31,319 nt of DNA, from the IMG/VR virus record IMGVR_UViG_3300022187_000129, positions 1 to 31,319 of that record, one strand, 5' to 3'. The notes under the pieces are model-generated. The model was not told where the DNA came from. It saw only the letters and a program-made list of their open reading frames with translations, and searched no databases. A program made the position numbers and the translations under genes. Below are positions 8,008 to 31,272 of this stretch, one piece after another; positions within the stretch are counted from its first letter, which is position 1, and every line of letters begins with the position of its first letter. Source of the DNA: a virus.

Positions 8008-8009
8008 TA

Positions 8010-11675: not shown

Positions 11676-11703
11676 ATTTATTTATCTGTTGTCACCGTTG
11701 CCA
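11662..11703. terminator. Convergent junction with 8-bp inverted repeat
   Basis: The rightward virion operon and the leftward operon meet with only six bases between their stop codons. TGGCAACG at 11662-11669 is matched by CGTTGCCA at 11696-11703 around a 26-base AT-rich loop. This could fold in either transcript and act as a weak bidirectional terminator. The large loop and absence of a clear U tract make this tentative. Confidence 0.3.
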
Positions 11704-12020: not shown

Positions 12021-12042
12021 TTTTTTCTCCTTCATCCACTGT

Positions 12043-12370: not shown

Positions 12371-12566
12371 TGAAGTAATTGTTCAAGATGTCAAGCCTAT
12401 CTTCATGTGCTGCAATCTTGTCCAACTCCCCCTGCATAGCTTCCATAATGTCTGAATGTTCTCCTATCCCTACTGGGTTACGTAGATAACATTCAATGTT
12501 GGCAACATGCAGTGCTACGTTTGCCTGTGCATGTTTACGTAGTACCTCTATCATCTGTTCTCTCAT
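12363..12566 (-). CDS. Small conserved phage protein, NPVGIGEH motif
   Basis: The 67-residue protein begins MREQMIEVLRKHAQANVALH and contains YLRNPVGIGEHSDIMEAM followed by a helix ending in LDILNNYFNE. I recall close relatives with the NPVGIGEHPDI motif in marine phages and cyanophages, always of unknown role. It looks all-helical and soluble. An AGGAG site lies seven bases before the ATG, and the start overlaps the stop of the endonuclease VII gene (ATGA). Confidence 0.7.
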   Translation of the reverse strand: MREQMIEVLRKHAQANVALHVANIECYLRNPVGIGEHSDIMEAMQGELDKIAAHEDRLDILNNYFNE

Positions 12567-12967
12567 CTGTCAACTCCTTTCTTTGATTTACTTTTCTTTA
12601 GATAACTCAACGCCTTTTCAACCCTTTCAATGCTGTCTCCCAGTGTTCCTAAAGCAAGATTACAGGGAGAGCATAGCCATCCTCTAAATGTCTCAGTTTC
12701 ATGGCAATGGTCAAGAACAAGTTTGTCGTGTTCTTTTCCACAGGCTTGACAGGTCTTTGTCATAGGCGGTGCTGTCTTTCGTATCCTATTAACAACCTGA
12801 TTGTGTTTTTTCTGGCAGTCTTTACAGGATGTGCTTCTACATTCTCTATCTCCCGTTGCTCTTCTGTATAATCTAAACGACTCTCTTGGTTTTCTTATGT
12901 TACAGTCTCTACATAAAATACCATTTTCATCTTCTTCATACTCTATTGAGAACAATTCAAATTGCAT
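12563..12967 (-). CDS. Recombination endonuclease VII-like HNH nuclease (copy 1)
   Basis: The 134-residue protein (start at the ATG at 12967, after AGAGG) has two metal-binding parts. An N-terminal pair CRDC (19, 22) and CKDC (48, 51) forms a zinc knuckle. The second part, CQAC (73, 76) through LDHCHETETFRGWLC-PCN (85-103), is the treble-clef HNH of the T4 gp49 / endonuclease VII family, with DHCH supplying catalytic and metal ligands and N103 closing the motif. The family resolves Holliday junctions and branched DNA, or acts as free-standing homing endonucleases. A divergent paralogue with the same layout lies at 20137-20580. Confidence 0.85.
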   Translation of the reverse strand: MQFELFSIEYEEDENGILCRDCNIRKPRESFRLYRRATGDRECRSTSCKDCQKKHNQVVNRIRKTAPPMTKTCQACGKEHDKLVLDHCHETETFRGWLCSPCNLALGTLGDSIERVEKALSYLKKSKSKKGVDR

Positions 12968-12971
12968 AACA

Positions 12972-13070
12972 CTACCTCTTCTTAAACCTGTGCTTGAAGA
13001 ATACAACAATATTGATTGTGGTGTTGACAGTGATGGCTAGTAACAACCACCACTGCCACCAGTTAGGCAT
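12972..13070 (-). CDS. 32-residue single-pass membrane peptide
   Basis: An ATG at 13070 follows GAAGGAG by five bases and opens a frame of 32 codons that ends five bases before the endonuclease VII start. The peptide is MPNWWQWW, then a hydrophobic segment (about residues 7-25, LLLAITVNTTINIVVFF), then a basic tail KHRFKKR. This is a strong single transmembrane prediction with the basic end on the cytoplasmic side. Both the ribosome binding site and the exact fit into the gap after the RNR stop support translation. Role unknown; small phage membrane peptides can affect lysis or exclusion. Confidence 0.6.
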   Translation of the reverse strand: MPNWWQWWLLLAITVNTTINIVVFFKHRFKKR

Positions 13071-13084
13071 GTCTGCTCCTTCAA

Positions 13085-15025: not shown

Positions 15026-15030
15026 TTTTC

Positions 15031-15189
15031 TCACTCCGTTAATGTTTTTATATTACGTATTTCGGCACCATCTACATCGTAGAAGTATTCTCTTATGCCG
15101 TCTTCTATTTCCATACCTACATCTCCATCTGCGGGTATTGGGTATTCTTCGGGGTCTATGTCGATGTTAATATAGACTTTAACTTTCAT
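15031..15189 (-). CDS. 52-residue acidic protein
   Basis: A 52-codon frame, overlapping the end of the previous gene by 11 bases and finishing just before the RNR start, fills the 144-base gap. The product starts MKVKVYINIDIDPEEYPIPA and continues as a small acidic alpha/beta sequence with YFYDVDGAEIRNIKTL at the end. I recall short phage proteins with the pattern VNIDIDPEEYP-PADG. The stop codon TGA lies within the ribosome binding site of the RNR gene, so translation is probably coupled. Function unknown. Confidence 0.65.
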   Translation of the reverse strand: MKVKVYINIDIDPEEYPIPADGDVGMEIEDGIREYFYDVDGAEIRNIKTLTE

Positions 15190-15496
15190 CACTCGCCACC
15201 ACGTCTTCCAGTAGTGTATTCAAATACCACTGGGCTTTCTGTAAATCCTCAAGAGGCTTACCCTTGTAGTCAAACCGCCACAGATACTTCATAATATTAC
15301 CCTGCAGGTAGTACTTAAAGTTTGGTCCTAGCGCAGCCTGAATAGCAGCAATACATTCAATACCTGATTGATTATAGTGTGAAGGACTGTTCACCATGTC
15401 TGCTTTTTTGTCTGTCATATTCTGTGTGTAAAACTCATCCATTAGCTTCTCCTCGTCCTGTGATAACTTGTCTTTCATATACTGCTCGTGTCTCAT
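15179..15496 (-). CDS. DUF3310 family protein (T7 gp1.7-related)
   Basis: The 105-residue protein contains the DUF3310 signature VNSPSHYNQSGIECIAAIQA (about residues 35-54), then YLQGNIMKYLWRFDYKGKPL and EDLQKAQWYLNTLL. T7 gp1.7, a nucleotide kinase, belongs to this domain family, so a nucleotide-related role is plausible but not shown for this shorter protein. The start overlaps the preceding stop as TAATG. It is encoded just upstream of RNR, again consistent with nucleotide metabolism. Confidence 0.8.
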   Translation of the reverse strand: MRHEQYMKDKLSQDEEKLMDEFYTQNMTDKKADMVNSPSHYNQSGIECIAAIQAALGPNFKYYLQGNIMKYLWRFDYKGKPLEDLQKAQWYLNTLLEDVVASDES

Positions 15497-18133: not shown

Positions 18134-20153
18134 GCCAGTTTTCGCCCATTTTTGCTTCTAAAAGTAATGGAACATTAAACTGCACTTTAAACGTAGTGTT
18201 AATGATATCTGTCAACTCCCTGTTTACAGTATTGATTACCTCAATCACCTGTCTTTCTTCGTCAGGATGGATGTCAATAACAATTGAATCGTGTACAGTA
18301 TTAACGATACAGCTATTTAACCCTTCCAGATAATCTTCTATGCGCAGTAGTGTTACTGGCACTATGTCTGCTGTAGCAAAGCCTTGAACGGGGTAGTTCT
18401 TTATCTGTGTAAAGTAACTAACCGTCCCATTAGTCTTACGTACAACATTGGGAAATGAGTACTGCCGTCCAGAAGGCGTTGTTATTTTCTGTGTTGACAA
18501 AGCCTCTTTAGCCAATCGGGAGTGCCATAGCCCAATTCCTCTGTACTTCTTCGTGAAGTGTTCGTAGTACTGCGCTTCCGCTGGTGTTCTTCCAAATCCC
18601 GTTGCGCCATATAACGGCGCGAAAGTATGCGCCTTCGCAGTCTGTCTGTCCGTAGGCTGACCAGCATCGGTAATAACTTTAGCGGTGTATGCGTGTACAT
18701 CAAATCCAGTAGATACTTCTTCAATTGCAACTCCATCCTGTGATAAAAATGCTGCTGCCCTAAACTCTAGCTGGGCAAAGTCAGCTTCCATAATCTTGCC
18801 ACCTTTCCACCGTGATATGAACACTTTCTTTACTGGGAAAGTACCACCACGGGGCATGTTCTGCATATTTGGGTCTGCCCCACTAAATCGTCCAGTGGCT
18901 GTACGATGTTGAAGCAGTCTTACGTGCAGCTTACCGTCTGCCTTTGTAAAGGTTTCAATGCCGTCTACAAAAGATGACAGGTAAGTATCCAAAGCACTTA
19001 GGCGTTTTACTTTATGTAGAAAACTCATTGCCTGTTCCATGCCTCGTTCTTTTGCAAAACCCTCAAGGATATCCAAGTTTGTTTTACTTGTTGTGAACCC
19101 ATGCGCACTAACCCACTTAGCTGTGGGTGCAGAAAACTTCAATCCTGCCAACTCGCCTGTGCTTACAAATTGATACCCAATGCCACCACAATCTGGACAC
19201 TTTGTAGGTTTTGCAAAGTTAGAGCCGTCTTTCTTTTTCTTGTAATACTTACCATTACCAAAACACGTACCACACCTTTTTGCTTTAGTTTTATACACAT
19301 GCACAGAATTATCTTTGACAGCTTGCTTATAGTTTGCTTTTGCCATGTAAGGGTCAAAAGAGTTTTGCCACATAGATTTGTCAACAGGCTTTCTGCTGTA
19401 GATAACCTGAGACAATTGCTCTGGGCTGTTTAGATTTACAGGCGTATCGCCCATCAAATCTGTTATCTGTTTTTGTAGTTCCTTTTCAAGATCAGCACGT
19501 TCATTCTCAAACTCAGTACGAACCTCTTGCAGCTTATCCATATCAACATTGAAACCACGTTGATACATGCGAGAGAGAGATACAGCTACCCTGTTAGTCA
19601 GTGTAACAGTGTCCATAAGACCAGCGTCATCGACTGTATTAAGACGCTGATACAAACGATCTGATAGCTGCTGCGTAGCTTCAAGGTCTGAAGACAAGTA
19701 ACTAGACAGCAAATCGTGTGGTATATCTTTTGTGCTGTATCCCTTATTGAAATATTCTTTCAATGTGTCTTGCTTCCTAGTATCAAGTTCATACCTGTTT
19801 GCACAAGCCTCAAGCGACAGTGGTTCCTTCTGTCCACGCTGCAAGACATACTCTGCCAACATCGTGTCAAAGACAGGACCATCATATTTAAAGCCAGATT
19901 CCCAGAGCCACAGCAAGTCGTGTGCTGCGTTGTGCATGATGAGGATAGTAGCTTTGTCTAACCATTCTTGTACAACAGTATGCCCAAATTCATCTGCCTC
20001 TACCTCACTGTGGTCAAAGGTAACGATACGCTCAACACCTTGGTCAGTCAGCATACCCACCATAGTCAAAGAGTTCTCTGGCTCAAATGGATCAAGGTGC
20101 ATCTTGCCGTCACGGTGTGTGACTGTGTTCTCAACATCAAGTGTCAGTTTCAT
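18111..20153 (-). CDS. Family A DNA polymerase with DnaJ-type zinc-finger insertion
   Basis: The 680-residue protein has an intact 3'-5' exonuclease (D6-V-E8; H74-N-A-A-H-D79; Y152/D156) and polymerase motifs A (D458 in MEADFAQLEFR), B (R503, K507, F511, Y515 in RQTAKAHTFAPLYG) and C (VHDS, H621-D622). F511 is at the E. coli Phe762 position, where T7 has Tyr. Between them, residues 294-326 hold two CxxCxGxG repeats (CGTCFGNG and CPDCGGIG), the zinc-binding pattern of DnaJ. I recall such a partial DnaJ domain in the polymerase of SAR116 phage HMO-2011. An AGGAGAG site precedes the ATG. The gene overlaps endonuclease VII by 17 bases. Confidence 0.95.
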   Translation of the reverse strand: MKLTLDVENTVTHRDGKMHLDPFEPENSLTMVGMLTDQGVERIVTFDHSEVEADEFGHTVVQEWLDKATILIMHNAAHDLLWLWESGFKYDGPVFDTMLAEYVLQRGQKEPLSLEACANRYELDTRKQDTLKEYFNKGYSTKDIPHDLLSSYLSSDLEATQQLSDRLYQRLNTVDDAGLMDTVTLTNRVAVSLSRMYQRGFNVDMDKLQEVRTEFENERADLEKELQKQITDLMGDTPVNLNSPEQLSQVIYSRKPVDKSMWQNSFDPYMAKANYKQAVKDNSVHVYKTKAKRCGTCFGNGKYYKKKKDGSNFAKPTKCPDCGGIGYQFVSTGELAGLKFSAPTAKWVSAHGFTTSKTNLDILEGFAKERGMEQAMSFLHKVKRLSALDTYLSSFVDGIETFTKADGKLHVRLLQHRTATGRFSGADPNMQNMPRGGTFPVKKVFISRWKGGKIMEADFAQLEFRAAAFLSQDGVAIEEVSTGFDVHAYTAKVITDAGQPTDRQTAKAHTFAPLYGATGFGRTPAEAQYYEHFTKKYRGIGLWHSRLAKEALSTQKITTPSGRQYSFPNVVRKTNGTVSYFTQIKNYPVQGFATADIVPVTLLRIEDYLEGLNSCIVNTVHDSIVIDIHPDEERQVIEVINTVNRELTDIINTTFKVQFNVPLLLEAKMGENWLDTKDVS

Positions 20154-22625: not shown

Positions 22626-22664
22626 TCACGATGTCTTAATATCACGATTTTGACGACTCGTCAA
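22625..22664. repeat. Direct repeats and palindrome at integrase 3' end (possible att or arm sites)
   Basis: ATCACGAT occurs at 22625-22632 and 22641-22648, 16 bases apart. TTGACGA-C-TCGTCAA at 22650-22664 is a perfect palindrome with seven-base arms around one base. All lie at the end of the integrase gene, where phage attachment sites are often found. No host sequence is available to test this. Confidence 0.3.
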
Positions 22665-23528
22665 TGCTAAATCTGCACTAGCAAAAGTGTTTTTCATGTA
22701 AGGCTTTACACTTTGTGGATTAGCATGTCCTGTAACCGACATAATATTGCCCATAGATACACCGGCCTCAACCATCTCAGTTGTACCAGTACGCCGAAGG
22801 TCAGACAACCTCAACTCATCAGGTAATCCAGCATCCCGCATGATACGACGTGCAACTTTAGGTAGCCGGTTAACTGTATAAGGTTTGTAAACACCTCGTA
22901 TTGGTTCTGTCATAGGTGCTACGTAAGGTTGAAAACCAAAGTCGCTCTCTTGTTCTATTAACATCTCTGTTAATTGTTGCGATATTGGCAAAAATACCTC
23001 TGCCTTACGTTTCGATTGCTTGATATACACACGTGACCCAGACAAATCCAATGCATCCCAAGTCAGTAGCCGCATGTCACCCAATCTCTGGCACCATTCA
23101 TATGCCATCTGTGCGATTAAACCCACGTTACGGGTGCTAAAATCGCCGTAGGCCGAGTCTAAGAAGTCCTGTACCTGTTGCCTACTCCACACAGTTCTAC
23201 GGACGCTCACAGGGCGTTTTTTGACAGCCAAAAATGGATTCACCAAAGTCATCTCCATGTGTAGACCATGATTAAATAGAATGCGAGAAGTAGACAGCAC
23301 ATGATTAGCTAAGTGAATGCCTCTGTCGCACCACTGATTGTAGGCCAGCTTGGCCATTCGGGATGACACTTTGTCACATTGCCTATCCCGAATAGCTTTG
23401 CTTTCCACTACAGTGTCCAGCATAATTTTTAGATGATATTGATACTGTTTCTTAGTTTCATCCCGTAAGTTATTGAACTCATAGGAATTGTAGTAATCAT
23501 CTACCACACTCTGTAGTGAGTATTTCAT
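22626..23528 (-). CDS. Phage tyrosine recombinase (integrase)
   Basis: A 300-residue protein with an N-terminal SAM-like core-binding domain (residues 1-100) and a catalytic domain. R148 (QRLGDMRLLTW), K173/K175 in the beta-hairpin, R245 in LSDLRRTGTTEM, H268 in VTGHANPQ and Y277 in VKPYMKN make the usual R-K-R-H-Y set. The first histidine of the HxxR box is replaced by serine (S242). It could integrate phage DNA or resolve concatemers; the presence of lytic replication genes means lysogeny is possible but not proven. Start overlaps the preceding stop as TAATG. Confidence 0.88.
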   Translation of the reverse strand: MKYSLQSVVDDYYNSYEFNNLRDETKKQYQYHLKIMLDTVVESKAIRDRQCDKVSSRMAKLAYNQWCDRGIHLANHVLSTSRILFNHGLHMEMTLVNPFLAVKKRPVSVRRTVWSRQQVQDFLDSAYGDFSTRNVGLIAQMAYEWCQRLGDMRLLTWDALDLSGSRVYIKQSKRKAEVFLPISQQLTEMLIEQESDFGFQPYVAPMTEPIRGVYKPYTVNRLPKVARRIMRDAGLPDELRLSDLRRTGTTEMVEAGVSMGNIMSVTGHANPQSVKPYMKNTFASADLALTSRQNRDIKTS

Positions 23529-24391: not shown

Positions 24392-24406
24392 GTCGCAACT
24401 TGCGAC
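24392..24406. repeat. GTCGCAA-N-TTGCGAC palindrome, copy 1
   Basis: Centre base C on the + strand. It lies 18 bases before the DUF932 start and downstream of promoter P3, inside the predicted leader. The leftward leader after it, ACACTATGAGGAGAAAAAA, is the same as after copy 6. Confidence 0.9.
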
Positions 24407-24413
24407 GGTTAAA

Positions 24414-24425
24414 GCCCCGAAGGGC
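24414..24425 (-). promoter_or_regulatory. Short UUCG hairpin in the P3 leader
   Basis: Leftward RNA would contain GCCC-UUCG-GGGC followed by UUU. The stem is only four pairs, so it is at most a weak terminator or attenuator between P3 and the DUF932 gene. Confidence 0.35.
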
Positions 24426-24437
24426 AAGTGATACTCT

Positions 24438-24466
24438 GTTATATAGATAACAAGAGCGTAAGTCAA
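24438..24466 (-). promoter_or_regulatory. Promoter P3 for the replication operon
   Basis: Leftward TTGACT (24461-24466), a 17-base spacer and TATAAC (24438-24443) lie in the gap after the hydrolase stop codon. The transcript would begin about 60 bases before the DUF932 start and would include the UUCG hairpin and palindrome copy 1, so the operon may be regulated in its leader. Confidence 0.7.
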
Positions 24467-24469
24467 GCG

Positions 24470-24889
24470 TTAATCCCACCTGTAGAACATGTGGTCACCT
24501 ATCTGTACGACAGGCACTTTGCTTTCTGCCCATTCGGGCAGGACGTAGGTTGCATGGTAGTGTGTGGCACCCTCAACGAAGTCATCAAGGTTGCCTGTGT
24601 ACACACCCTGTGCAATCAACGTAGCTTGCTGCCACGCTGTCTGGTCAGGTGTCTTGTCTGACTTACCGTCGCAGTACCAGCTAAACTGACAGCGATGGCG
24701 TACAGGAAAGTCCGGCTTCCATGAATATGTTGGCCCCTGTTTGACGACATCACATACAGTGTCAGGATACCTATCGTCATATACTCTGTTCATTACCACT
24801 TGGGCTACCGCAACCTGCCCTATAAAGGGCTGGTCACGGGCCTCATGGTAGATGTTCAATGCAAGGCAAACAATTGCTGCTTCAAACAT
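24470..24889 (-). CDS. SleB-type cell-wall hydrolase (candidate endolysin)
   Basis: The 139-residue protein matches the Hydrolase_2/SleB pattern: CLALNIYHEARDQPFIGQVA (catalytic Glu at residue 16 in YHEAR), AQVVMNRV, CQFSWYCDG, then THYHATYVLPEWA and IGDHMFYRW. SleB enzymes are lytic transglycosylases of peptidoglycan. There is no signal peptide, so release would need a holin. Candidates are the 66-aa protein at 4153 and the two-helix proteins at 26323 and 29368. Its place in the early-side operon, far from the virion genes, is unusual for an endolysin. The start overlaps the previous stop (TAATG). Confidence 0.85.
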   Translation of the reverse strand: MFEAAIVCLALNIYHEARDQPFIGQVAVAQVVMNRVYDDRYPDTVCDVVKQGPTYSWKPDFPVRHRCQFSWYCDGKSDKTPDQTAWQQATLIAQGVYTGNLDDFVEGATHYHATYVLPEWAESKVPVVQIGDHMFYRWD

Positions 24890-25173
24890 TAAGTAATTCC
24901 CTCCAAGTTAAACTGACGCTGAAACCTGTTCATAGTATCTTCCAAGTCTTGAAGTTCAAGCACGGATAGACAACGAATGCCTCCCATGTCATTGTACAAG
25001 GCAGTTAAAAGAACACTACTAAGTTCTTTGTGCATTTTTACAAGGACATCACGTTGTTCTTCGGTAAGTTGCCTTATCCGATCCTCACGATCTTGTTCTT
25101 CCTCTTTACGAACTCTATCCCAATACGCAATTCTTTCTTTCTGTGTCATGTTTTCTATGCTTTTCTCTGTCAT
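24889..25173 (-). CDS. Small coiled-coil protein
   Basis: A 94-residue protein with AAAAGGAG before its ATG. Residues 8-45 are a highly charged coiled coil (RIAYWDRVRKEEEQDREDRI), followed by a helical segment containing CLSVLELQDLEDTMNRF. No domain is recognised. It is coupled to the hydrolase gene by TAATG. It might assist or regulate lysis, but only adjacency suggests this. Confidence 0.6.
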   Translation of the reverse strand: MTEKSIENMTQKERIAYWDRVRKEEEQDREDRIRQLTEEQRDVLVKMHKELSSVLLTALYNDMGGIRCLSVLELQDLEDTMNRFQRQFNLEGIT

Positions 25174-25187
25174 ATCATCTTCTCCTT

Positions 25188-25370
25188 TTAATCACAAGAG
25201 GTGTGTCGGGATATCACAGCCACCCAACATTGCTGGTCTTCGTCGTAGTACGCTGGTGTCTCCAGCCTAGTGCCATACCCGAATGGGTGATAGCCACGAA
25301 AGTAATCCTCCACCTTCCGTTCAAGGATGGTGCGGTCTTCGTGTTTGATGTTCACTATTATAGTCTTCAT
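25188..25370 (-). CDS. Small conserved protein, unknown function
   Basis: Start set at the ATG at 25370, after GGAG and overlapping the previous stop (ATGA). The 60-residue product has a beta-alpha-beta look: MKTIIVNIKHEDRTILE, a short helix, then a tyrosine-rich turn (YFRGYHPFGYGTRLETPAYY) and a final strand QCWVAVISRHTSC. It may be a small ferredoxin-like or ribbon fold. Function unknown. Confidence 0.6.
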   Translation of the reverse strand: MKTIIVNIKHEDRTILERKVEDYFRGYHPFGYGTRLETPAYYDEDQQCWVAVISRHTSCD

Positions 25371-25870
25371 GCTGCACACTCCTTCATCCAATCTGGCATC
25401 TCACGACCCTTGTTATACCTAGCAAACCGCATCTTGTCAACCTTGTAAAACGCACGGTATGCAACGATAGGCCAATCCTCGTCTGTCTTGCAGTCATCAT
25501 GTCCGCTGAAGCATTGCGGGTGAGGTGTTACGTCACCGTCAGGTAGCAGACGCCGCCCCTCGTATAATGCAATGCTGTGCTTGCCAGCACCATGCCACTT
25601 GCCGTATCTGTGGTGATACTCACACAGCATGGATGTGTACAGGCTGTAAGCCCAGCGGTAATTGGCACGATTCTCCATTGCCCACAATGTACAGGGATGC
25701 TTCTGATGTACAGGCTTGTACAGCCCACGCTCTTCTGCATACTCCGGTGCATGATGCCACAGTGTAGTACATAACATCTGCGCTTCTTCCAATGGCATCT
25801 TGACAACGTGCTGGTCACACAATGACTTGGCGATGTCCGCTGGCGTGTCTTCAATCAAAAACCTATTCAT
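25367..25870 (-). CDS. Pyr_excise-family-like protein (possible DNA glycosylase)
   Basis: The 167-residue protein begins MNRFLIEDTPADIAKSLCDQHVVKMPLEEAQMLC in style and continues with LWHHAPEYAEERGLYKPVHQ, TLWAMENRANYRWAYSL and TPHPQCFSGHDDCKTDEDWP. I recall this pattern from proteins annotated as pyrimidine-dimer DNA glycosylases distantly related to T4 endonuclease V. T4 DenV uses Thr2 as nucleophile; residue 2 here is Asn, so repair activity is uncertain. The many conserved His, Trp and Tyr residues suggest an enzyme. GGAG precedes the start. Confidence 0.7.
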   Translation of the reverse strand: MNRFLIEDTPADIAKSLCDQHVVKMPLEEAQMLCTTLWHHAPEYAEERGLYKPVHQKHPCTLWAMENRANYRWAYSLYTSMLCEYHHRYGKWHGAGKHSIALYEGRRLLPDGDVTPHPQCFSGHDDCKTDEDWPIVAYRAFYKVDKMRFARYNKGREMPDWMKECAA

Positions 25871-26030
25871 GTTTCATCTCCTGTATTACTACATCTTCTG
25901 CGTTTGAAATTGCACCAGCTATACGAAACCAGCTATCATCAAGTTCAGAACTGCTGTTCATACAAATGTCGTATAACTTCGTTAGTTCTTCTAAAACCTC
26001 TGCCTTTGTCAGAATCTCATTATCAGTCAT
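25863..26030 (-). CDS. 55-residue acidic helical protein
   Basis: An ATG at 26030 behind a strong GGAGGTGAGC site opens a 55-codon frame that overlaps the next gene by eight bases. The product begins MTDNEILTKAEVLEELTKLY and ends with SNAEDVVIQEMKHE; it is acidic and helical with one cysteine. The good ribosome binding site and complete filling of the gap support it. No homology recognised. Confidence 0.65.
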   Translation of the reverse strand: MTDNEILTKAEVLEELTKLYDICMNSSSELDDSWFRIAGAISNAEDVVIQEMKHE

Positions 26031-26032
26031 GC

Positions 26033-26209
26033 TCACCTCCATTGATATTCGTAGCTGTAGTTGTATTCAGCATCCAGTAAATGCCACGCCTGTTCATAAG
26101 CATAATCCCAATTAGTACACTCACCTGTTGCAATGTCTTCATCGGCAATACATTTTGCCCAATGGTCAAAGCTAGGCTCATGGTCTAGTTGTAGTTCTTC
26201 TTCATTCAT
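26033..26209 (-). CDS. 58-residue acidic, aromatic-rich protein
   Basis: Start set at the ATG at 26209 behind GGAGGTGAGC. The product is MNEEELQLDHEPSFDHWAKC at the N-terminus, followed by a stretch rich in Asp, Trp and Tyr (NWDYAYEQAWHLLDAEYNYS). The stop TGA is part of the ribosome binding site of the following gene. Strong negative charge and aromatic content resemble DNA-mimic or inhibitor proteins of phages, but this is only a resemblance of composition. Confidence 0.62.
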   Translation of the reverse strand: MNEEELQLDHEPSFDHWAKCIADEDIATGECTNWDYAYEQAWHLLDAEYNYSYEYQWR

Positions 26210-26330
26210 GCTCACCTCCATCACGCAACTCCTCCACAAACTCTAGTGCCTGTTCTAGTTCATCCATATTTCCATTGATTGCTTCTTGTATGGCAAAGCT
26301 AACCCAATCCAGCTTTTCTTGTTCACTCAT
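26202..26330 (-). CDS. 42-residue acidic protein ending GGEHE
   Basis: The ATG at 26330 follows GGGGGTGAGC. The 42-codon product, MSEQEKLDWVSFAIQEAING at the start, is one or two acidic helices and ends RDGGEHE. It overlaps the next gene by eight bases so that its last codons GGT-GAG-CAT-GAA-TGA contain that gene's ribosome binding site and start. The gene before it ends the same way, which argues that both junctions are real. Confidence 0.62.
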   Translation of the reverse strand: MSEQEKLDWVSFAIQEAINGNMDELEQALEFVEELRDGGEHE

Positions 26331-26604
26331 GCTCACCCCCATTGCCTCTACCTAAACCACCGAAATACTGCGGCTTACGTCTGGCTGTTTCAAACACACC
26401 TGCCGTGATGAACACGCCAGCAATCAACAGGGCATGGGCAATGGCACTGATGCCAAACACCACGACACTACCCACAGACATGCTGAAGATGATACACCAC
26501 ATCCATGCCAGCACCTGCATCACCATGTGCCGTGTGTTGTTGTCAGGTATGTGGGACAGCGGGTTGTATCGACTGTCCATGATTAGTTTCCAAATGTTAT
26601 TCAC
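26323..26604 (-). CDS. Two-helix membrane protein (holin-like candidate)
   Basis: The start is a GTG at 26604 with GGAG nine bases upstream, overlapping the HNH stop (GTGA). The 93-residue protein has a polar N-terminus (about 27 residues), two transmembrane helices (about 28-50, VMQVLAWMWCIIFSMSVGSV; 51-71, ISAIAHALLIAGVFITAGVF) and a basic then glycine-rich C-terminal tail. Size and topology are those of class II holins. It lies six genes ahead of the SleB-type hydrolase in the same operon, which makes it a reasonable partner, though not a proven one. Confidence 0.65.
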   Translation of the reverse strand: MNNIWKLIMDSRYNPLSHIPDNNTRHMVMQVLAWMWCIIFSMSVGSVVVFGISAIAHALLIAGVFITAGVFETARRKPQYFGGLGRGNGGEHE

Positions 26605-27056
26605 TGTATCTCTCCTCTCTTGCGTTGCGTTGCTGTGTGTTTAGTGTGGCAAGGGAAACATACCACACGGCACTTGTCAATCTCTGCTTGTATAACCTTC
26701 CATGAACGTCCCGCCATGTCACACACGTTGTATAACTTATCGTCTGGATTCAGGTGATCAAACTGCAACAGATAGGCAAATGCTTTCTGATACTTTTTGT
26801 GTATGTTTCTTTTTTGCATACCGCACACTTCACAGCCGCGATCTACTTTTATTTGAGTAATACGTTTACGGTTCAGGTTATGCCTCTTAGTACGTGCCTT
26901 ATCTTTTGCCACTTCCTGTTTGGCATAGGTCTTGGGGTGACGATAGTCCAGTATCTTCTCCCCATTCCACCTACGTATGCCCCAAAGTTTGTAGCCATCC
27001 TCGCGCACATGGCCACGAAAGATTGTTACGTTGTAGTCTGCTGCTGTGTATTCCAT
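26601..27056 (-). CDS. HNH endonuclease
   Basis: The 151-residue protein has a basic N-terminal half followed by an HNH fold: C75-x2-C78, D100-H101 in LLQFDHLNPDDK, and CRVVCFPCHTKHT with C129, C133-x2-C136-H137 and H140. This is a different HNH subfamily from the two endonuclease VII-like genes. The N-terminus (GHVREDGYKLWGIRRWNGEK) resembles the DNA-binding module found in homing endonucleases. GGAGG lies before the ATG, and palindrome copy 2 sits directly upstream of that site. Confidence 0.82.
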   Translation of the reverse strand: MEYTAADYNVTIFRGHVREDGYKLWGIRRWNGEKILDYRHPKTYAKQEVAKDKARTKRHNLNRKRITQIKVDRGCEVCGMQKRNIHKKYQKAFAYLLQFDHLNPDDKLYNVCDMAGRSWKVIQAEIDKCRVVCFPCHTKHTATQRKRGEIQ

Positions 27057-27071
27057 TGTTCCCTCCTCAGT

Positions 27072-27086
27072 GTCGCAAGTTGCGAC
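27072..27086. repeat. GTCGCAA-N-TTGCGAC palindrome, copy 2
   Basis: Lies between the stop codon TAA of the basic 55-residue protein (three bases away) and the GAGGAGG ribosome binding site of the HNH gene. Confidence 0.9.
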
Positions 27087-27088
27087 GG

Positions 27089-27256
27089 TTAAGCACTCCG
27101 TAAACGTGACCGGCCAGCACCACTCGCAAAGGTTGCGTTCTGGCGGTACTGCTTATCACGACGCTGTGCAGCACGTGTAATCTTCCACGGCTGGCGACGA
27201 CGCTTAATCGGTTGCTTTCGTGCTAGACGTTTCACCTGATTCATGTTTCCGTGCAT
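27089..27256 (-). CDS. 55-residue very basic protein
   Basis: Start set at the ATG at 27256, seven bases after AAGGAG. The product begins MHGNMNQVKRLARKQPIKRR and has about one third Arg and Lys, ending SGAGRSRLRSA. The composition suggests nucleic-acid binding, for example a small DNA- or RNA-binding accessory protein. The stop codon merges with the flank of palindrome copy 2. A second small frame overlaps its first 53 bases. Confidence 0.55.
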   Translation of the reverse strand: MHGNMNQVKRLARKQPIKRRRQPWKITRAAQRRDKQYRQNATFASGAGRSRLRSA

Positions 27257-27344
27257 TGTCATTCTCCTTGTTTCTGTTGTAGGAACCTTTGCCCTTCTTT
27301 GGCTGCTCCACATGTGTAGACGTGCGCCTACGATTGTGTGCCAT
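27204..27344 (-). CDS. 46-residue basic protein overlapping the next gene
   Basis: A 46-codon frame beginning MAHNRRRTSTHVEQPKKGKG and followed by SYNRNKENDN. The KKGKGSYNR motif is familiar from short phage proteins. It fills the gap between its neighbours and contains the AAGGAG site of the following gene, with which it overlaps by 53 bases. No clear ribosome binding site precedes its own ATG, so it is less certain than the gene it overlaps. Confidence 0.45.
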   Translation of the reverse strand: MAHNRRRTSTHVEQPKKGKGSYNRNKENDNARKHESGETSSTKATD

Positions 27345-27360
27345 AGACTTTGCTATAGGA

Positions 27361-27585
27361 TTAACTCTCTTTATCACGTTGCCTCTCCTTCAACTCATCC
27401 TCAATCCACCAGATGATTTCCTTGTCATCATCTGTGCCGATACACTGGAACTGTTTTATAGTGTCCAAATCTTCAAGTGTCAAGTCAAACTCGTCAATGA
27501 TGTCATCAGCCATCTGCCATGCGGCCTCACGTTTGAAATCTGACCATGCCTCTATTGCCATTGCGGCATTTGTAATATCAGTCAT
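27361..27585 (-). CDS. Small acidic protein, unknown
   Basis: A 74-residue acidic, helical protein (MTDITNAAMAIEAWSDFKRE at the start; TDDDKEIIWWIEDELKERQR near the end). The start overlaps the stop of the previous gene by eight bases and has AAAGG nine bases upstream. It has no recognised domain. Its place among many tiny leftward genes suggests an early accessory function. Confidence 0.58.
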   Translation of the reverse strand: MTDITNAAMAIEAWSDFKREAAWQMADDIIDEFDLTLEDLDTIKQFQCIGTDDDKEIIWWIEDELKERQRDKES

Positions 27586-27961
27586 CTGTCAATACCTTTC
27601 CCTGCGCATGTGCAGCTTGGTGGTAGTATCGCGGTGCTTCTGTGCCATTAAAGAAAGCCTTGACATCGACACGGTTGACAGTCTCCCACAGGAACTCCTG
27701 ATAGTCCTCACTCAAATCAGACAGCTTGGCTTCCCATTCTGCCTGTGTCTCAACGTCTGTTGGTATCTCTTTGAGGCCAACACTGTTGACAGCAAAGGTA
27801 GCCATGATGAATGCCATTGCATCGGCTGGTCGGTCAACGCCAGACACAAGGTATGTGTCACCGCCTTTGAATTTCCAGTATGCGTTGCCATTCTCAAACT
27901 TGCCGTCATCATCATGTGCGCCATAGTTTTCCAAAGTCTGCATGTGTACTGCGTAAGTCAT
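27578..27961 (-). CDS. 127-residue protein, unknown function
   Basis: GAGGAG precedes the ATG, and palindrome copy 3 lies directly upstream of that site. The N-terminal half is beta-like (NAYWKFKGGDTYLVSGVDRP), followed by helices (AFIMATFAVNSV; LSEDYQEFLWETVNRVDVKA). No cysteine pair or catalytic motif is visible. It follows the GP88-like gene, and the 30-base junction is made up mainly of the palindrome and the ribosome binding site. Confidence 0.62.
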   Translation of the reverse strand: MTYAVHMQTLENYGAHDDDGKFENGNAYWKFKGGDTYLVSGVDRPADAMAFIMATFAVNSVGLKEIPTDVETQAEWEAKLSDLSEDYQEFLWETVNRVDVKAFFNGTEAPRYYHQAAHAQGKVLTDD

Positions 27962-27974
27962 TTACATCTCCTCT

Positions 27975-27989
27975 GTCGCAAGTTGCGAC
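27975..27989. repeat. GTCGCAA-N-TTGCGAC palindrome, copy 3
   Basis: Sits between the TAA stop of the GP88-like gene and the GAGGAG site of the 127-residue gene; almost the entire 30-base junction is this element. Confidence 0.9.
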
Positions 27990-27991
27990 GG

Positions 27992-28777
27992 TTAACCGAT
28001 TACAAAACCACTGGTGTCACGTACAGCCTTGCCTTTGGCATACAAGGCAGACACCACACCCTGCGGCTCAATAAAGCGCAGGTCGCTGTCGTCACCATCG
28101 ACCACATCCATGCCCATAAAATGCTTGGGTATCTGTGTGCGATAGCGGAACACTACAGCCAAACGCATACCCATGTCAATAGCAGTCTGTGCATAACGCT
28201 GGTATTGCTCCACACCACTGTAACTGAACGTCAGGTCATAGATAGACAGATCAGGCACCATGCGGTTGGCAATCTTGGTATAGTCGTACCATTGCACACC
28301 GTGATCACGATGAAGCGACACCATCTCATCCCACAACTTGTTTTCCCAGCGAATATCCGTCGTGCCATTGAGACGGACAGCACAACGCAAGTCATGCTTG
28401 GCGCAGTACTTGGCATGTGCCAGCACTTCGGACAACAGCATGGCCTTGAAGTCATCCCAATATTGCAACATGAACAATGTCTTGCGTAGGCGTGACATCT
28501 GAACAGATGACATAGCACCACGCCCTGCCGTGTTGAGACAAGCGTCAATGCACTTGGCGACACCGGCCATAGCACATAGATTGACACCGCTGGAAGACGC
28601 TGGCGAAAGATACAGCACTGCTGTGCGAATGCCATACTTCTCACCCTTGACAGTCTTGGGGTTGTCAATGTTCAGCAGCTTTGTAGGAAACTCGCTGAAC
28701 CACTTGGTGAACTTGGGGCTGGCGTGTATCTGTGCAACAACGTCAGCAGGAACTTTGGACAGGTCATAGATAATCAT
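27992..28777 (-). CDS. GP88-like phage protein with C-x7-C-x3-C motif
   Basis: Start set at the ATG at 28777; the longer frame lies in the leader. The 261-residue protein has VNLCAMAGVAKCIDACLNTAGRG (C68, C76, C80), then a VQMSRLRKTLFML segment, the hallmark I recall for the gene product 88 family of phages. An alpha/beta domain follows with GTTDIRWENKLWDEM and LTFSYSG. The three closely placed cysteines followed by TAGRG could bind a metal or cluster. The family's function is unknown to me. A 72-base leader with a hairpin and palindrome copy 4 precedes it. Confidence 0.72.
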   Translation of the reverse strand: MIIYDLSKVPADVVAQIHASPKFTKWFSEFPTKLLNIDNPKTVKGEKYGIRTAVLYLSPASSSGVNLCAMAGVAKCIDACLNTAGRGAMSSVQMSRLRKTLFMLQYWDDFKAMLLSEVLAHAKYCAKHDLRCAVRLNGTTDIRWENKLWDEMVSLHRDHGVQWYDYTKIANRMVPDLSIYDLTFSYSGVEQYQRYAQTAIDMGMRLAVVFRYRTQIPKHFMGMDVVDGDDSDLRFIEPQGVVSALYAKGKAVRDTSGFVIG

Positions 28778-28800
28778 AGTGGCCTCACTTGTTGGGGTTG

Positions 28801-28826
28801 GGGGTGGCACGACATTGCACCACCCC
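28801..28826 (-). promoter_or_regulatory. Hairpin in the leader of the GP88-like gene
   Basis: GGGGTGG (28801-28807) pairs with CCACCCC (28820-28826) around 12 bases. It lies between palindrome copy 4 and the start codon, so it could influence translation or premature termination. No U tract follows it on the leftward strand. Confidence 0.4.
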
Positions 28827-28831
28827 GAAGT

Positions 28832-28846
28832 GTCGCAACTTGCGAC
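28832..28846. repeat. GTCGCAA-N-TTGCGAC palindrome, copy 4
   Basis: Begins three bases after the TAG stop of the 87-residue gene and lies at the top of the GP88-like leader. Centre base is C on the + strand, as in copy 1. Confidence 0.9.
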
Positions 28847-28849
28847 AGT

Positions 28850-29113
28850 CTATGTCCGGTGAATAACGTAATCGTTGCCATTCTTGGACACAATGCGATG
28901 CAGATTATAGAACGCACCGCCCTTCCGCATGTTATACGGAAAGTAAAACTTGGTATTACCAAGCTGCACCATCTCATGCCTACGGCAAGAATAGGTGGCG
29001 TAGTCGGCAAAGTCAACATCACGGACGATGGTTGGCTTGACGCCCTGCTTTGTCCACCAGCGATAGGCAGACTTGGCATTGCGGTAGTCGGAATTAAACA
29101 GATACTTGAACAT
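28850..29113 (-). CDS. 87-residue basic protein after promoter P2
   Basis: Start set at the ATG at 29113, behind AAAGGAG. The product has an N-terminal FKYLFNSDYRNAKSAYRWWT helix and a beta-rich rest with KFYFPYNMRKGGAFYNLHRI; it is basic and aromatic. No domain is recognised. As the first gene after P2, it would be strongly expressed early if these promoters act early. Confidence 0.62.
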   Translation of the reverse strand: MFKYLFNSDYRNAKSAYRWWTKQGVKPTIVRDVDFADYATYSCRRHEMVQLGNTKFYFPYNMRKGGAFYNLHRIVSKNGNDYVIHRT

Positions 29114-29157
29114 GGCTTTTTCTCCTTTGTTACAGTTGCCATTCACATTGTGCATAT

Positions 29158-29186
29158 ACATTAGCATACGCAATTTCTTATGTCAA
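29158..29186 (-). promoter_or_regulatory. Promoter P2, extended -10 type
   Basis: Leftward TTGACA (29181-29186), a 17-base spacer ending in TGC, then TAATGT (29158-29163). The stretch TTTGACATAAG-N-AATTG and the TGCTA at the -10 are shared with P1. The -35 box overlaps the stop of the upstream 62-residue gene, and the start codon of the next gene is 45 bases downstream. Confidence 0.65.
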
Positions 29187-29371
29187 ACGCTCTCCTCATG
29201 GCGTTTGGTTGCTAGGCTAGTGGCCGCACAAATTGAAGCGGACCACTCTTCACGATTCTCAATCCATATCTTTTTGAACGACGGCCAGTCAATGGGCTGG
29301 CAATGACCAGCACAGTCTAGCTTGTGTTCTTCATAGGCAGACATGCGAAATTTTACGGTATCATTCATCAT
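29183..29371 (-). CDS. 62-residue protein, unknown
   Basis: Several starts are possible (GTG at 29380, ATG at 29371 or 29368); the ATG at 29371 has GGTGG five bases upstream and is used here. The product contains RMSAYEEHKLDCAGHCQPID and a helix FKKIWIENREEWSASICAAT, with three cysteines. The gene overlaps the end of the membrane-protein gene by four bases. Function unknown. Confidence 0.55.
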   Translation of the reverse strand: MMNDTVKFRMSAYEEHKLDCAGHCQPIDWPSFKKIWIENREEWSASICAATSLATKRHEESV

Positions 29372-29553
29372 CTTTTCCACCCCAAAGCAAATAGAAGGAA
29401 GAACCCAAAGGCCATGAAGATCAGGCCCAACGCTTCAGCCATTGACAACACACCATAGGCAATCTTCGGGTCTGTTGTTTCTGTGAAGAACAGATGGCAA
29501 GCCAGAATCCAGTATGCCAATATTAAAGACCATTTCAGAACATATAATACCAT
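29368..29553 (-). CDS. Small two-helix membrane protein
   Basis: The ATG at 29553 has GGAG eight bases upstream; a GTG at 29562 in the same frame overlaps that site and is less likely. The 61-residue product has two hydrophobic segments (about 3-25, LYVLKWSLILAYWILACHLF; 36-58, SMAEALGLIFMAFGFFLLFA) separated by a polar loop TETTDPK. Holin-like or superinfection-exclusion roles are both possible; nothing in the sequence decides between them. Confidence 0.58.
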   Translation of the reverse strand: MVLYVLKWSLILAYWILACHLFFTETTDPKIAYGVLSMAEALGLIFMAFGFFLLFALGWKR

Positions 29554-29558
29554 ATCAC

Positions 29559-29789
29559 TCACTCCGCTACATAGGTTGCATCAAATCGTTCCAGCAATTT
29601 CGGGTGCCAGCGTGTAAGGTAGTCACGCCGCCCCTTCAATGCTACGAACACAGTCTTGCCTTTGGTTGTCTTGACAGTGTACATACCCTGCCCATCATGC
29701 TCGACAACAACATTCCACTTGGTGGCCACCTTGCGTATCTCACGCAGGATGTATTGCACCGTTGGCTTGTCAATAAAACGCACTTCCAT
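29559..29789 (-). CDS. 76-residue basic protein, unknown
   Basis: Start set at the ATG at 29789 with GGGAG seven bases upstream, one base after the previous stop. The product, MEVRFIDKPTVQYILREIRK at the start, has a helix then a beta-hairpin-like VVVEHDGQGMYTVKTTKGKT and a basic helical end. It may be a small nucleic-acid-binding protein. The palindrome copy 5 lies 26 bases upstream, inside the coding end of the preceding gene. Confidence 0.58.
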   Translation of the reverse strand: MEVRFIDKPTVQYILREIRKVATKWNVVVEHDGQGMYTVKTTKGKTVFVALKGRRDYLTRWHPKLLERFDATYVAE

Positions 29790-29790
29790 G

Positions 29791-30078
29791 TTACTCTCCC
29801 TTGAATGGTAGGACTGTCGCAAGTTGCGACACTTGTGATTGCCTTGCGGCCAACTTCTCGCGCACTTCCCGCATTGCGGTACGCACACGCTCTTGCTTCA
29901 ACGCATCATGGTACGCTTGCCAATTCTGCGCAGACATCATCACACCCTGATCCAGTACAGGATACAGCTTGCGATCATGCACACGTGATTCGCTGTGCGA
30001 GATACGCTCACACGTACCGGCAGAACGTAATCGTGCGCTGGCAATAGGCACGATGCGGTCATTCTCAAATGCTTTCAT
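29791..30078 (-). CDS. 95-residue protein with palindrome-encoded C-terminus
   Basis: The ATG overlaps the previous stop (TAATG). The product is basic: an N-terminal VPIASARLRSAGTCERIS stretch and a helical NWQAYHDALKQERVRTAMRE section. Near the C-terminus, the residues SQLAT are encoded by palindrome copy 5, and ten residues later the protein stops. That tail probably was not part of the ancestral protein. Function unknown. Confidence 0.58.
   Translation of the reverse strand: MKAFENDRIVPIASARLRSAGTCERISHSESRVHDRKLYPVLDQGVMMSAQNWQAYHDALKQERVRTAMREVREKLAARQSQVSQLATVLPFKGE
29816..29830. repeat. GTCGCAA-N-TTGCGAC palindrome, copy 5 (inside a coding sequence)
   Basis: The only copy lying within a gene: it encodes part of the C-terminus of the 95-residue protein. 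It is 26 bases before the start of the next gene, so it keeps the usual position relative to a downstream start. Confidence 0.9.
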
Positions 30079-30281
30079 TACACATGCACCTTTCCATCTG
30101 CATCCAAAAGAACAGATTGAACCTTCACCTCGTTCCCGCCATCACGCAACTCATCTGCCATGTGGGTAGCAGACTCAAGATTGTGTGTGCTACGGAAGCA
30201 CAGCCAATCACCAGCCTTTGCATTAGAGGAAGTGTAGCCTTCGCCGTCATGCTTGATAGTCACCAGAAATACCTCAGTCAT
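30078..30281 (-). CDS. 67-residue protein, first gene after promoter P1
   Basis: Start set at the ATG at 30281 behind GAGGAG. The product begins MTEVFLVTIKHDGEGYTSSN and has a DWLCFRSTHNLESATHMADE helix region and a strand VKVQSVLLDADGKVHV. It looks like a small alpha/beta domain. It is the first gene of the P1 operon; its leader contains palindrome copy 6 and shares a 19-base block with the DUF932 leader. Confidence 0.6.
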   Translation of the reverse strand: MTEVFLVTIKHDGEGYTSSNAKAGDWLCFRSTHNLESATHMADELRDGGNEVKVQSVLLDADGKVHV

Positions 30282-30298
30282 TTTTTTCTCCTCATAGT

Positions 30299-30313
30299 GT
30301 CGCAAGTTGCGAC
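30299..30313. repeat. GTCGCAA-N-TTGCGAC palindrome, copy 6
   Basis: Lies between promoter P1 and the first gene of its operon, 17 bases before that start codon. The following leftward sequence ACACTATGAGGAGAAAAAA matches that after copy 1. Confidence 0.9.
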
Positions 30314-30353
30314 GGTAAGGGTTGAAGTCACACGCCTTCTCAAGCGTTCCCCC

Positions 30354-30382
30354 ATACTAGCACCGTCAATTCCTTATGTCAA
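30354..30382 (-). promoter_or_regulatory. Promoter P1, extended -10 type
   Basis: Leftward TTGACA (30377-30382), 17 bases ending in TGC, and TAGTAT (30354-30359) form a near-perfect sigma-70-type promoter with an extended -10. Direct repeats lie directly upstream. It would start the long leftward operon of small genes; palindrome copy 6 lies about 35 bases downstream of the predicted start. Confidence 0.72.
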
Positions 30383-30390
30383 ATGCGGCA

Positions 30391-30471
30391 CCCCATACCC
30401 CATACCCCATATTACTATCTAACTACCCACAACCCCATATTACTATCTGACCAAAATCAGCACCAAAATCA
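30391..30471. repeat. Cluster of short direct repeats upstream of P1
   Basis: Three tandem copies of CCCCATA (30391-30411), a 16-base direct repeat CCCCATATTACTATCT at 30405-30420 and 30433-30448 (28-base period), and CCAAAATCA at 30451-30459 and 30463-30471 (12-base period). The cluster lies between the terminator and the P1 -35 box. It may be an activator-binding array or iterons of an origin. Confidence 0.7.
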
Positions 30472-30477
30472 AGGCAC

Positions 30478-30506
30478 AAAAAAAGGGCCAGCCCGAAGGC
30501 TGACCC
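30478..30506 (-). terminator. Rho-independent terminator with UUCG loop
   Basis: Leftward RNA folds as GGGUCAGCC-UUCG-GGCUGGCCC, nine pairs with one G-U, followed by seven U. It ends the transcript of the 193-residue gene and isolates it from the P1 operon. It is the clearest terminator in the window. Confidence 0.9.
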
Positions 30507-30516
30507 ATTGTTGACT

Positions 30517-30531
30517 GTCGCAAGTTGCGAC
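30517..30531. repeat. GTCGCAA-N-TTGCGAC palindrome, copy 7
   Basis: Begins four bases after the TAA stop of the 193-residue gene and precedes its terminator by about 10 bases. Confidence 0.9.
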
Positions 30532-30534
30532 GGT

Positions 30535-31116
30535 TTAGCCATTGGCAGCTTTCTTGCCAGTGTCGCCAGCTTCGACTTCCTCTGTCCATTCGGCAACAAA
30601 GTCAGTGAAGCTAAAACCTTGCGCTTCGGCGAATGCTTCAAGCGCGGCCAGCTTGTCTGCAAGCGTTACAGGCTTTTTACCTTTGGCAACAAAAGAGACT
30701 TGCTTTGTCTTGCCTTGGCCTGATTTTGGTGCGCGTTGCTGTGGCGGCGTTGTTTTGTTGGCGCGATTGAATGACGCGACTGCCCCGCGAATAGTGGAAC
30801 ATTTACCAAGCTTGCCAGCCTTGGCAGCCTTGCCAATGGCGGTCCCTTGCTTTCCGGCAATCGTGACATATGCCGCGATAATGTCGCGCTTGGCAGCATC
30901 GTTCACAACATACGCAAGGCCCAATTCGCGCAGCTTGGCGTCACGTTCTTTTTTAACAGCCTTGCCAACATGCTTCACAATGTGCTGGCAAGCCTTGCGA
31001 ATTTCGGGGAAGCGTTCCGCGAATGTATCGGCTTGCGACTGCGCGAAATTGCTTTCAGCATTGTCGAAAACGATAAGGAAATTCATGGCAGTTTTAATGT
31101 CGATTTTCTGTGTCAT
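30535..31116 (-). CDS. 193-residue basic protein, possible regulator
   Basis: The product has a helical N-terminal domain (residues 1-110; VVNDAAKRDIIAAYVTIAGK), a Pro/Gln/Lys-rich linker at 118-140 (TPPQQRAPKSGQGKTKQ) and a C-terminal helical domain (LADKLAALEAFAEAQGFSF). It is basic overall with an acidic end. GGAGGG precedes the ATG. It forms its own transcription unit, with two palindrome copies upstream and one downstream, and uses noticeably more GCG, GGC and TTG codons than neighbouring genes. I recognise no family; autoregulation through the palindromes is inference. Confidence 0.68.
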   Translation of the reverse strand: MTQKIDIKTAMNFLIVFDNAESNFAQSQADTFAERFPEIRKACQHIVKHVGKAVKKERDAKLRELGLAYVVNDAAKRDIIAAYVTIAGKQGTAIGKAAKAGKLGKCSTIRGAVASFNRANKTTPPQQRAPKSGQGKTKQVSFVAKGKKPVTLADKLAALEAFAEAQGFSFTDFVAEWTEEVEAGDTGKKAANG

Positions 31117-31170
31117 AATGTGTGGCCCTCCAAGGCCGGTGCGCTTGGCGTGATTGCCAGCGACAACACT

Positions 31171-31199
31171 GTTCTATCAAATGCTGATGCTAATGTAAA
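31171..31199 (-). promoter_or_regulatory. Candidate promoter P5 for the 193-residue gene
   Basis: Leftward TTTACA (31194-31199), 17 bases, TAGAAC (31171-31176). Weaker than P1-P4. Palindrome copy 8 begins two bases upstream of the -35 box, the position of an activator or overlapping repressor site. Confidence 0.42.
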
Positions 31200-31201
31200 G
31201 T

Positions 31202-31216
31202 GTCGCAAGTTGCGAC
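31202..31216. repeat. GTCGCAA-N-TTGCGAC palindrome, copy 8
   Basis: Placed directly against the -35 box of candidate promoter P5. On both sides the symmetry extends, with ACT and AGT-like flanks. Confidence 0.9.
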
Positions 31217-31257
31217 AGTCTGTTTTGTTCAATTTCAATGACTTAGCATTTTACAGT

Positions 31258-31272
31258 GTCGCAAGTTGCGAC
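31258..31272. repeat. GTCGCAA-N-TTGCGAC palindrome, copy 9
   Basis: Lies 56 bases from copy 8, beside an AT-rich stretch (31276-31290) containing the palindrome ATAATATTAT, which has -10-like hexamers on both strands. The window ends 47 bases further on, so any gene beyond cannot be seen. Confidence 0.88.

Follow-up and report, generated by a model that had tools for sequence, protein, structure and literature searches.

Nine copies of a palindrome in the early region of a marine HMO-2011-type phage fragment as candidate operators of a phage-encoded regulator

In phage P1, one repressor, C1, serves operators that are scattered over the genome, asymmetric, and located mostly at promoters. Cluster A mycobacteriophages (L5, Bxb1, TipsytheTRex) carry many stoperators per genome, some placed at promoters but the majority in the short gaps between genes; these 13-bp sites are asymmetric, direction-bound, and read by a small phage-encoded repressor that acts as a monomer with two DNA-binding domains, and both the consensus sites and their cognate repressors diverge between related phages (PMC9283540, PMC6550527). 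In SPbeta, a 15-bp motif, SPBRE, lies in promoter regions before about ten phage genes and is bound by one repressor, MrpR, which has a tyrosine-recombinase fold (PMC10516654). Here, we analyzed the IMG/VR virus record IMGVR_UViG_3300022187_000129 (positions 1 to 31,319, referred to below as the window), a 31.3-kb fragment of a marine podovirus of the HMO-2011 type. The palindrome GTCGCAANTTGCGAC occurs in it as exactly nine perfect copies, all of them in the leftward early region and none in the first 24 kb, as had been counted in a first-pass annotation of the sequence. Judging from the comparison with related phages, these palindromes are very probably DNA operators of a phage regulator.

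The nine copies start at positions 24392, 27072, 27975, 28832, 29816, 30299, 30517, 31202, and 31258, and a lone three-mismatch match is present at 30562. Under a first-order Markov model, only about 1e-4 exact copies are expected by chance, and shuffled sequence yielded a mean of 1.4 matches and a maximum of 5 when up to 3 mismatches were permitted. The half-site itself is nearly confined to the nine copies, as its two orientations occur 9 and 10 times in the whole window. On the + strand, the centre base is G in 7/9 copies and C in 2/9, as the first-pass annotation had it, and the flanks prolong the symmetry to an extended consensus ASY-GTCGCAANTTGCGAC-ASW. The statement in that annotation that most copies lie between a stop codon and the next ribosome binding site stood in part. 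Four copies follow a stop codon at a distance of 2–3 nt (30517, 28832, 27975, 27072) and four are located 13–18 nt ahead of the next ATG (30299, 27975, 27072, 24392), with 27975 and 27072 fulfilling both descriptions, but the copy at 29816 lies in the end of an open reading frame (ORF), and those at 31202 and 31258 lie ahead of the first early gene. The copies at 29816, 28832, 27975, and 27072 have no promoter-like sequence next to them. The features of the region are listed below in the direction of transcription; L followed by a number denotes a locus of a viral contig used for comparison.

31258..31272, no strand: copy 9, the first in the transcription direction, upstream of gene 1; exact GTCGCAAGTTGCGAC on the + strand
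31202..31216, no strand: copy 8, upstream of gene 1, with 2 bp between its end and the -35-like hexamer of P1
31171..31199, minus strand (leftward): putative promoter P1 of gene 1, TTTACA-N17-TAGAAC, read by eye, weak consensus
30535..31116, minus strand: gene 1, encoding W193 (193 residues), the first early gene and proposed cognate regulator
30517..30531, no strand: copy 7, 3 nt behind the gene 1 stop codon
30485..30506, minus strand: intrinsic terminator behind gene 1, with a stem of 9 bp and a T7 tail
30354..30382, minus strand: putative early promoter P2, TTGACA-N17-TAGTAT with TG before the -10, from a scan (10/12)
30299..30313, no strand: copy 6, roughly 35 bp past the expected start of P2 and 17 nt before the ATG at 30281
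29816..29830, no strand: copy 5, within the last codons of ORF 29791-30078 and 26 nt before the ATG at 29789
28832..28846, no strand: copy 4, with the 34 nt downstream identical in L305, whose site is TGTCACAGGTGTGACA
27992..28810, minus strand: GP88-family gene, the syntenic anchor for finding orthologous regions
27975..27989, no strand: copy 3, 2 nt behind the stop of the GP88-family gene; relatives have other spellings or no site
27072..27086, no strand: copy 2, 2 nt after the stop at 27089 and 15 nt before the ATG at 27056
24438..24466, minus strand: putative promoter upstream of the DUF932 gene, TTGACT-N17-TATAAC, read by eye, below the scan cut-off
24392..24406, no strand: copy 1, about 25 bp downstream of the expected start of the DUF932 promoter and 18 nt before the ATG at 24373 (DUF932 gene)
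22626..23528, minus strand: tyrosine integrase

The contig that includes L146, L302, and L305 shares 75–89% DNA identity with the window over the early region and carries eight copies of TGTCACANNTGTGACA and one of GTCGCAACTTGCGAC, which are orthologous to the window sites where comparable. The ortholog of the 29816 site (L305, 9189) reads TGTCACACCTGTGACA, and at 28832 it is the palindrome that differs between the window and L305, next to identical bases. The site before the DUF932 gene has three spellings (window, L305, L308) within conserved flanks. The junction right after the GP88-family stop contains, in different relatives, the window form, a GTCACA form, a GTCCCA form, or GTGTTANNTAACAC; no site is found there in L309-L311 and L313, and a promoter-like sequence is found in L303 and L306. 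The half-sites, GTCGCA in the window, GTCCCA in L274 and L308, and GTCACA in L146, L307, and L317, each form an inverted repeat with a 2–3 bp centre, and in our reading the three spellings may be written as GTC-N-CA, 2–3 bp, TG-N'-GAC, where N is G, C, or A. The first-pass annotation had made its proposal depend on conservation of position in related phages; position is indeed conserved, and it is the sequence that changes.

A mobile intergenic repeat of the kind of miniature inverted-repeat transposable elements or repetitive extragenic palindromes, inserting between a stop and a ribosome binding site, could also account for the presence or absence of copies at the same junction among relatives, and for near-identical copies within one genome. 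However, the copies are only about 21 bp long and have unrelated flanks, orthologous sites are respelled in place so that only the palindrome changes, and the set is coherent in each genome, with the rare exception of L146 9599. The lone GTCGCAACTTGCGAC at that place in a TGTCACANNTGTGACA genome, the ortholog of window 27072 (L305 11173), may have been imported as a module or may be a relic that was left unchanged. We consider the mobile cassette, which the first-pass annotation had listed, hardly credible. The same annotation had left the choice between a phage-encoded and a host regulator. Dispersed palindromes before genes recall bacterial regulons, as if the phage had borrowed the site of a host transcription factor, but none of the results points to one directly, and relatives with 75–89% identical early DNA use different spellings, some of them none, and the spelling follows the gene 1 type of the phage. 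The part of the choice that stood is thus the phage-encoded regulator, the chance of a host factor being very slim. The suggested role in DNA organisation found no specific support.

Palindromes of other spelling are present in multiple copies in like places in the relatives (GTCCCAANTTGGGAC, TGTCACANNTGTGACA, GTCCAANNTTGGAC, GTCCGANN(N)TCGGAC, and others), and more than 100 viral contig stretches have a genome-specific palindrome ahead of early genes. The 15-mer of the window is nearly private to its phage type: a scan of viral contigs without flanks returned mostly single, probably chance matches, and with flanks 9 stretches were left. One of these, L147, looks unrelated, having two A/T-centred copies and no BLAST match to the window. 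With its flanks, GTCCAANNTTGGAC was found in at least 120 stretches, and 64 among the 120 listed hold at least three copies. In the sequence parts examined, the isolates CRP-1 and CRP-345 contain 5 and 6 exact copies of GTCCAANNTTGGAC, respectively, and HMO-2011 contains 5 copies of AGTCCGACAGCGGACT or its reverse complement. In L275-L277, GTCCGANNNTCGGAC and GTCCGANNTCGGAC are in use, and in L274, GTCCCAANTTGGGAC is located before the promoter, inside gene 1, and directly behind its stop. Among 206 sites, both centre orientations are used, the symmetry extends to about 20 bp, and a Shine-Dalgarno-like sequence follows within 40 nt downstream in 87/206 cases, as compared with 2 in the reverse control.

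Lambda-type nut boxB elements are 15 nt long, with a 5-bp stem and a 5-nt loop; they are transcribed hairpins that occur together with boxA and whose loop is read by an arginine-rich peptide. The 15-nt element of the window could form a stem and a loop of the same size, its copies come shortly before ribosome binding sites on the transcripts, and three of them score as weak terminator-like hairpins, as if they functioned as RNA hairpins in the leader of the next gene (boxB-like antitermination, processing, or translational control). In contrast to boxB, the bases of the would-be loop (AA-N-TT) are themselves symmetric in the window spelling and the variants closest to it, and a copy precedes a promoter, being located 5' of the P1 -35. 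These features speak for recognition as DNA. Moreover, both centre orientations occur, the in-gene copy described below keeps its DNA symmetry in different frames, and Rfam contained no match for the palindrome element. An RNA hairpin, which the first-pass annotation had mentioned, is therefore disfavoured, and we regard it as highly improbable.

As its own gene is flanked by sites, the product of gene 1 appeared to be the likeliest regulator, and we think it probable, from the sequence comparisons, that it is. The 193-residue protein had been named as a candidate before and remains the best one. Counterparts of copy 7, behind gene 1, are found in L274 (10567), L146 (6907), and HMO-2011 (24 nt after gp74). 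W193 matched no Pfam or PHROG family (1e-3), and its family is uncharacterised and all-helical. Direct sequence search retrieved a sole viral-contig relative, gene 1 of L274 (53% identity). Among the multi-copy contigs listed, the most widely shared protein (53/64 contigs) has about 198 residues; it is the ortholog of gp01 of CRP-345 and CRP-1 and a homolog of HMO-2011 gp74. A profile of three W193-type proteins, searched against 11,124 ORFs including 91 gp01 members, had 16 gp01-family proteins among its next 19 matches at E<1, while 20 column-shuffled control profiles gave one gp01-family match in all. Gene 1 of L312, which has the GTGTTA spelling, is related to that of L146 (E 5e-5). Array and gene 1 are both present in the window, L305, and L312, and GP88 relatives without an array (L303, L304, L306, L309-L311, L313) had no gene 1 match, although this association among window-like relatives comprises few independent cases.

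Most of the 58 distinct gene 1 loci have a copy 60–340 nt upstream, and usually one in a coding linker or shortly behind the stop. Depending on the frame, the linker copy encodes SNVGQ or SPKSDT, and in 52/54 of the SNVGQ copies the spelling is precisely the one needed for the palindrome, a count made in contigs that were found through the motif. Since the palindrome is kept in different frames and with this exactness, selection appears to act on DNA. Taken together, the comparison of sequences supports the existence of the operator set, which the first-pass annotation had proposed, as well as its placement, its respelling in situ, and its presence together with members of the gene 1 family.

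Several further arrays and motifs were observed among the contigs. In L275, L276, and L277 (e.g., L277 6881-6960), TTTAAACNGGAGTTTAA- or TTAATCGGAGATTAA-like sequences lie behind the operators, and before many genes a small inverted repeat has the Shine-Dalgarno sequence as part of its loop. The contig G014 (IMGVR_UViG_3300032080_000014, loci L296/L297; 36 kb, 62% GC), from a phage that is very different in composition, contains 29 copies of GTCCAANNTTGGAC throughout, densely at 19.3-27 kb. Its 230-residue ORF (19357-20049) has one copy upstream and one inside, the latter coding for KVSKVGQSE, which resembles the gp01 linker. In G001 (L295), ten GTCCAANNTTGGAC copies are spread over 6484-15305, at least two of them in tandem before a 313-residue ORF starting with MAKSA, which was not recognised by the gp01 profile. 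The AT-rich GP88 relatives L314 (7402-10946) and L315 (7237-17855) have their own arrays (TTACCAANTTGTTAA-like and TTACCTNNNAGGTAA); the 199-residue first gene of L314, which contains NTIRG, is preceded by two tandem copies, with one copy inside and one over its stop. In the array-free L310 (5553-5642) and L309 (1057-1116), the short iterated motifs ACACTTAACT and TACACTTAGG are clustered in one spot and are possibly operators of a different regulator. The last 500-600 bp or so of the CRP-345 and CRP-603 records contain a repeated TGTGATCACA in a divergent control region, which adjoins an operator in CRP-345.

The assignment of the window to the HMO-2011 type is based on its DNA polymerase (680 residues, gp12-related), which is 74% identical over 100% of its length to that of Puniceispirillum phage HMO-2011 and 66–68% identical to the polymerases of CRP-1 and CRP-345, both Roseobacter phages, and on the synteny of its integrase, primase, helicase, and polymerase genes with CRP-1/CRP-345. 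The leftward small genes of the early region are followed by the DUF932, integrase, primase, helicase, and polymerase genes. If the genome is as long as those of the relatives (~54 kb), the genome ends and about 23 kb would be absent from the window. As a tyrosine integrase is encoded, the phage may be temperate. In the ocean, phages of this type are described as widespread and dominant (PMC9038755); an integrase is present in many of them, and the integration of CRP-3 has been demonstrated (PMC9038755, PMC6918029). No comparable multi-copy palindrome and, in the parts searched, no gene 1 match were found in CRP-2, CRP-207, CRP-603, CRP-3, CRP-738, and HTVC033P, indicating that not all members of the group have the system. 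The presence of integrase does not separate array-bearing from array-free relatives.

From the arrangement of sites, we infer binding by the gene 1 product, the sign of regulation, a roadblock, and a link to immunity, as follows. A two-fold symmetric, probably dimeric, phage-encoded protein would bind the double-stranded palindromes; the spacing of the half-sites, about one helical turn, and a symmetry extending to about 20 bp would fit binding of the gene 1 product as a dimer. It would repress at P1, at P2, and before the DUF932 gene, and would act as a roadblock to RNA polymerase at 29816, 28832, 27975, and 27072, so that the leftward early operon would be shut off, either in the prophage or later in infection. 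We lean slightly towards repression by roadblock at the intergenic copies. Half-site and regulator would co-diverge between related phages, giving relatives different regulatory, perhaps immunity, specificities. The position of copy 8 relative to the promoter is repeated in L274 (9861), where TTGACA-N17-TAACTT is found at the place of P1; P1 itself is below the cut-off of the promoter scan, and since promoter-like matches in the region are not more numerous than in shuffles, the promoter calls are weak. A strong terminator is present behind gene 1 in the window, L274, and L146, and gene 1 thus looks like a separate transcription unit. The leftward promoter-like sequences with TTGACATAAG at window 30382-30354 and about 29190-29160 resemble each other.

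We give the whole reading (operators, gene 1 as regulator, repression at promoters and by roadblock, and co-divergence with the half-site) a probability of roughly 0.6, and a number of observations weigh against it. The direct comparison of W193 and gp01 profiles was weak (hhalign probability 2%). The predicted model of W193 (pLDDT 41) was too poor to use, and the structure search was confined to the gp01 branch, where the model (pLDDT 76) had no clear match in the PDB and no recognised DNA-binding domain. With 2 bp between it and the P1 -35, copy 8 would be placed just as well for activation. A pattern-based search of 84,980 prokaryotic genomes found no relative of gene 1, neither a prophage nor a host copy, which leaves the presence of the integrase as the only support for a possible role in immunity. 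Arrays are present in L314, L315, G001, and G014, whose first genes could not be convincingly tied to the family by profile, and early genes other than gene 1, several of them small, also differ between the window and L146. The arrays of L314, L315, and G001 and the differing early genes, together with the fact that the window covers 31.3 kb of a genome of about 54 kb, would fit operators of a phage regulator other than gene 1, e.g., one encoded in the part absent from the fragment. However, gene 1 is flanked by sites and often contains one, its family tracks the presence and absence of arrays, and in G014, too, the ORF with the in-gene copy directly follows an upstream copy and is similar in size. 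Thus, another phage regulator seems unlikely to us, and gene 1 is kept as the proposed regulator.

Searches for a known counterpart of gene 1 gave the following. The top second-look row for the gp01 model was a ParB-family Spo0J-parS complex (Z 3.8, root-mean-square deviation 4.5, 90 residues), which is not significant and within the noise for helical models. No PDB sequence matched gp01, and its best structure match in a viral library was an unnamed 205-residue protein (E 6e-6). The assignment of W193 to MecA (NCBIfam) was noise, at 15.7 bits versus a cut-off of 750. In Pfam and PHROG, W193 had no integrase-family match. As for homology to L5 gp71, addressed by sequence profiles only, W193 had no PHROG or Pfam match at 1e-3 and the gp01 family no convincing one.

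If the proposal is true, a cognate regulator–operator pair would for the first time give access to gene control, and perhaps to immunity groups, in HMO-2011-type phages. The several spellings in similar early regions would be a natural data set for the joint change of specificity in a regulator and at least nine dispersed sites; in cluster A phages, this process has been called poorly understood (PMC6550527). The system is present in the isolates CRP-1, CRP-345, and HMO-2011, which makes it testable. Only tentatively, and with the odds rather against it, one may go further and suppose a new regulator family with a new DNA-binding fold and palindromic stoperators partly inside its own gene, in which regulator and sites switch specificity jointly and split neighbouring marine phages into regulatory or immunity groups. 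Literature matches to the 15-mer and its half-sites were to unrelated sequences only, and two papers on HMO-2011-type phages make no mention of a repressor, promoter, or palindrome (PMC9038755, PMC6918029).

As in cluster A phages, the window has many sites, nine in number, and several of them are located away from promoters in short gaps. Unlike the stoperators, they are 15-bp perfect palindromes with the centre base in both orientations, gene 1 belongs to no PHROG or Pfam family and is unrelated to the known repressor by sequence profiles, and the block of elongation would here be a deduction from placement. A repeated 15-bp motif before phage genes is shared with SPBRE; in contrast to it, several window sites are not beside a recognisable promoter. 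In Pfam and PHROG, gene 1 had no match to the integrase family. As with C1 of phage P1, one proposed regulator would serve scattered operators. The palindromes would thus form a distributed phage operator set of a known type, which in this dominant marine group is apparently undescribed.

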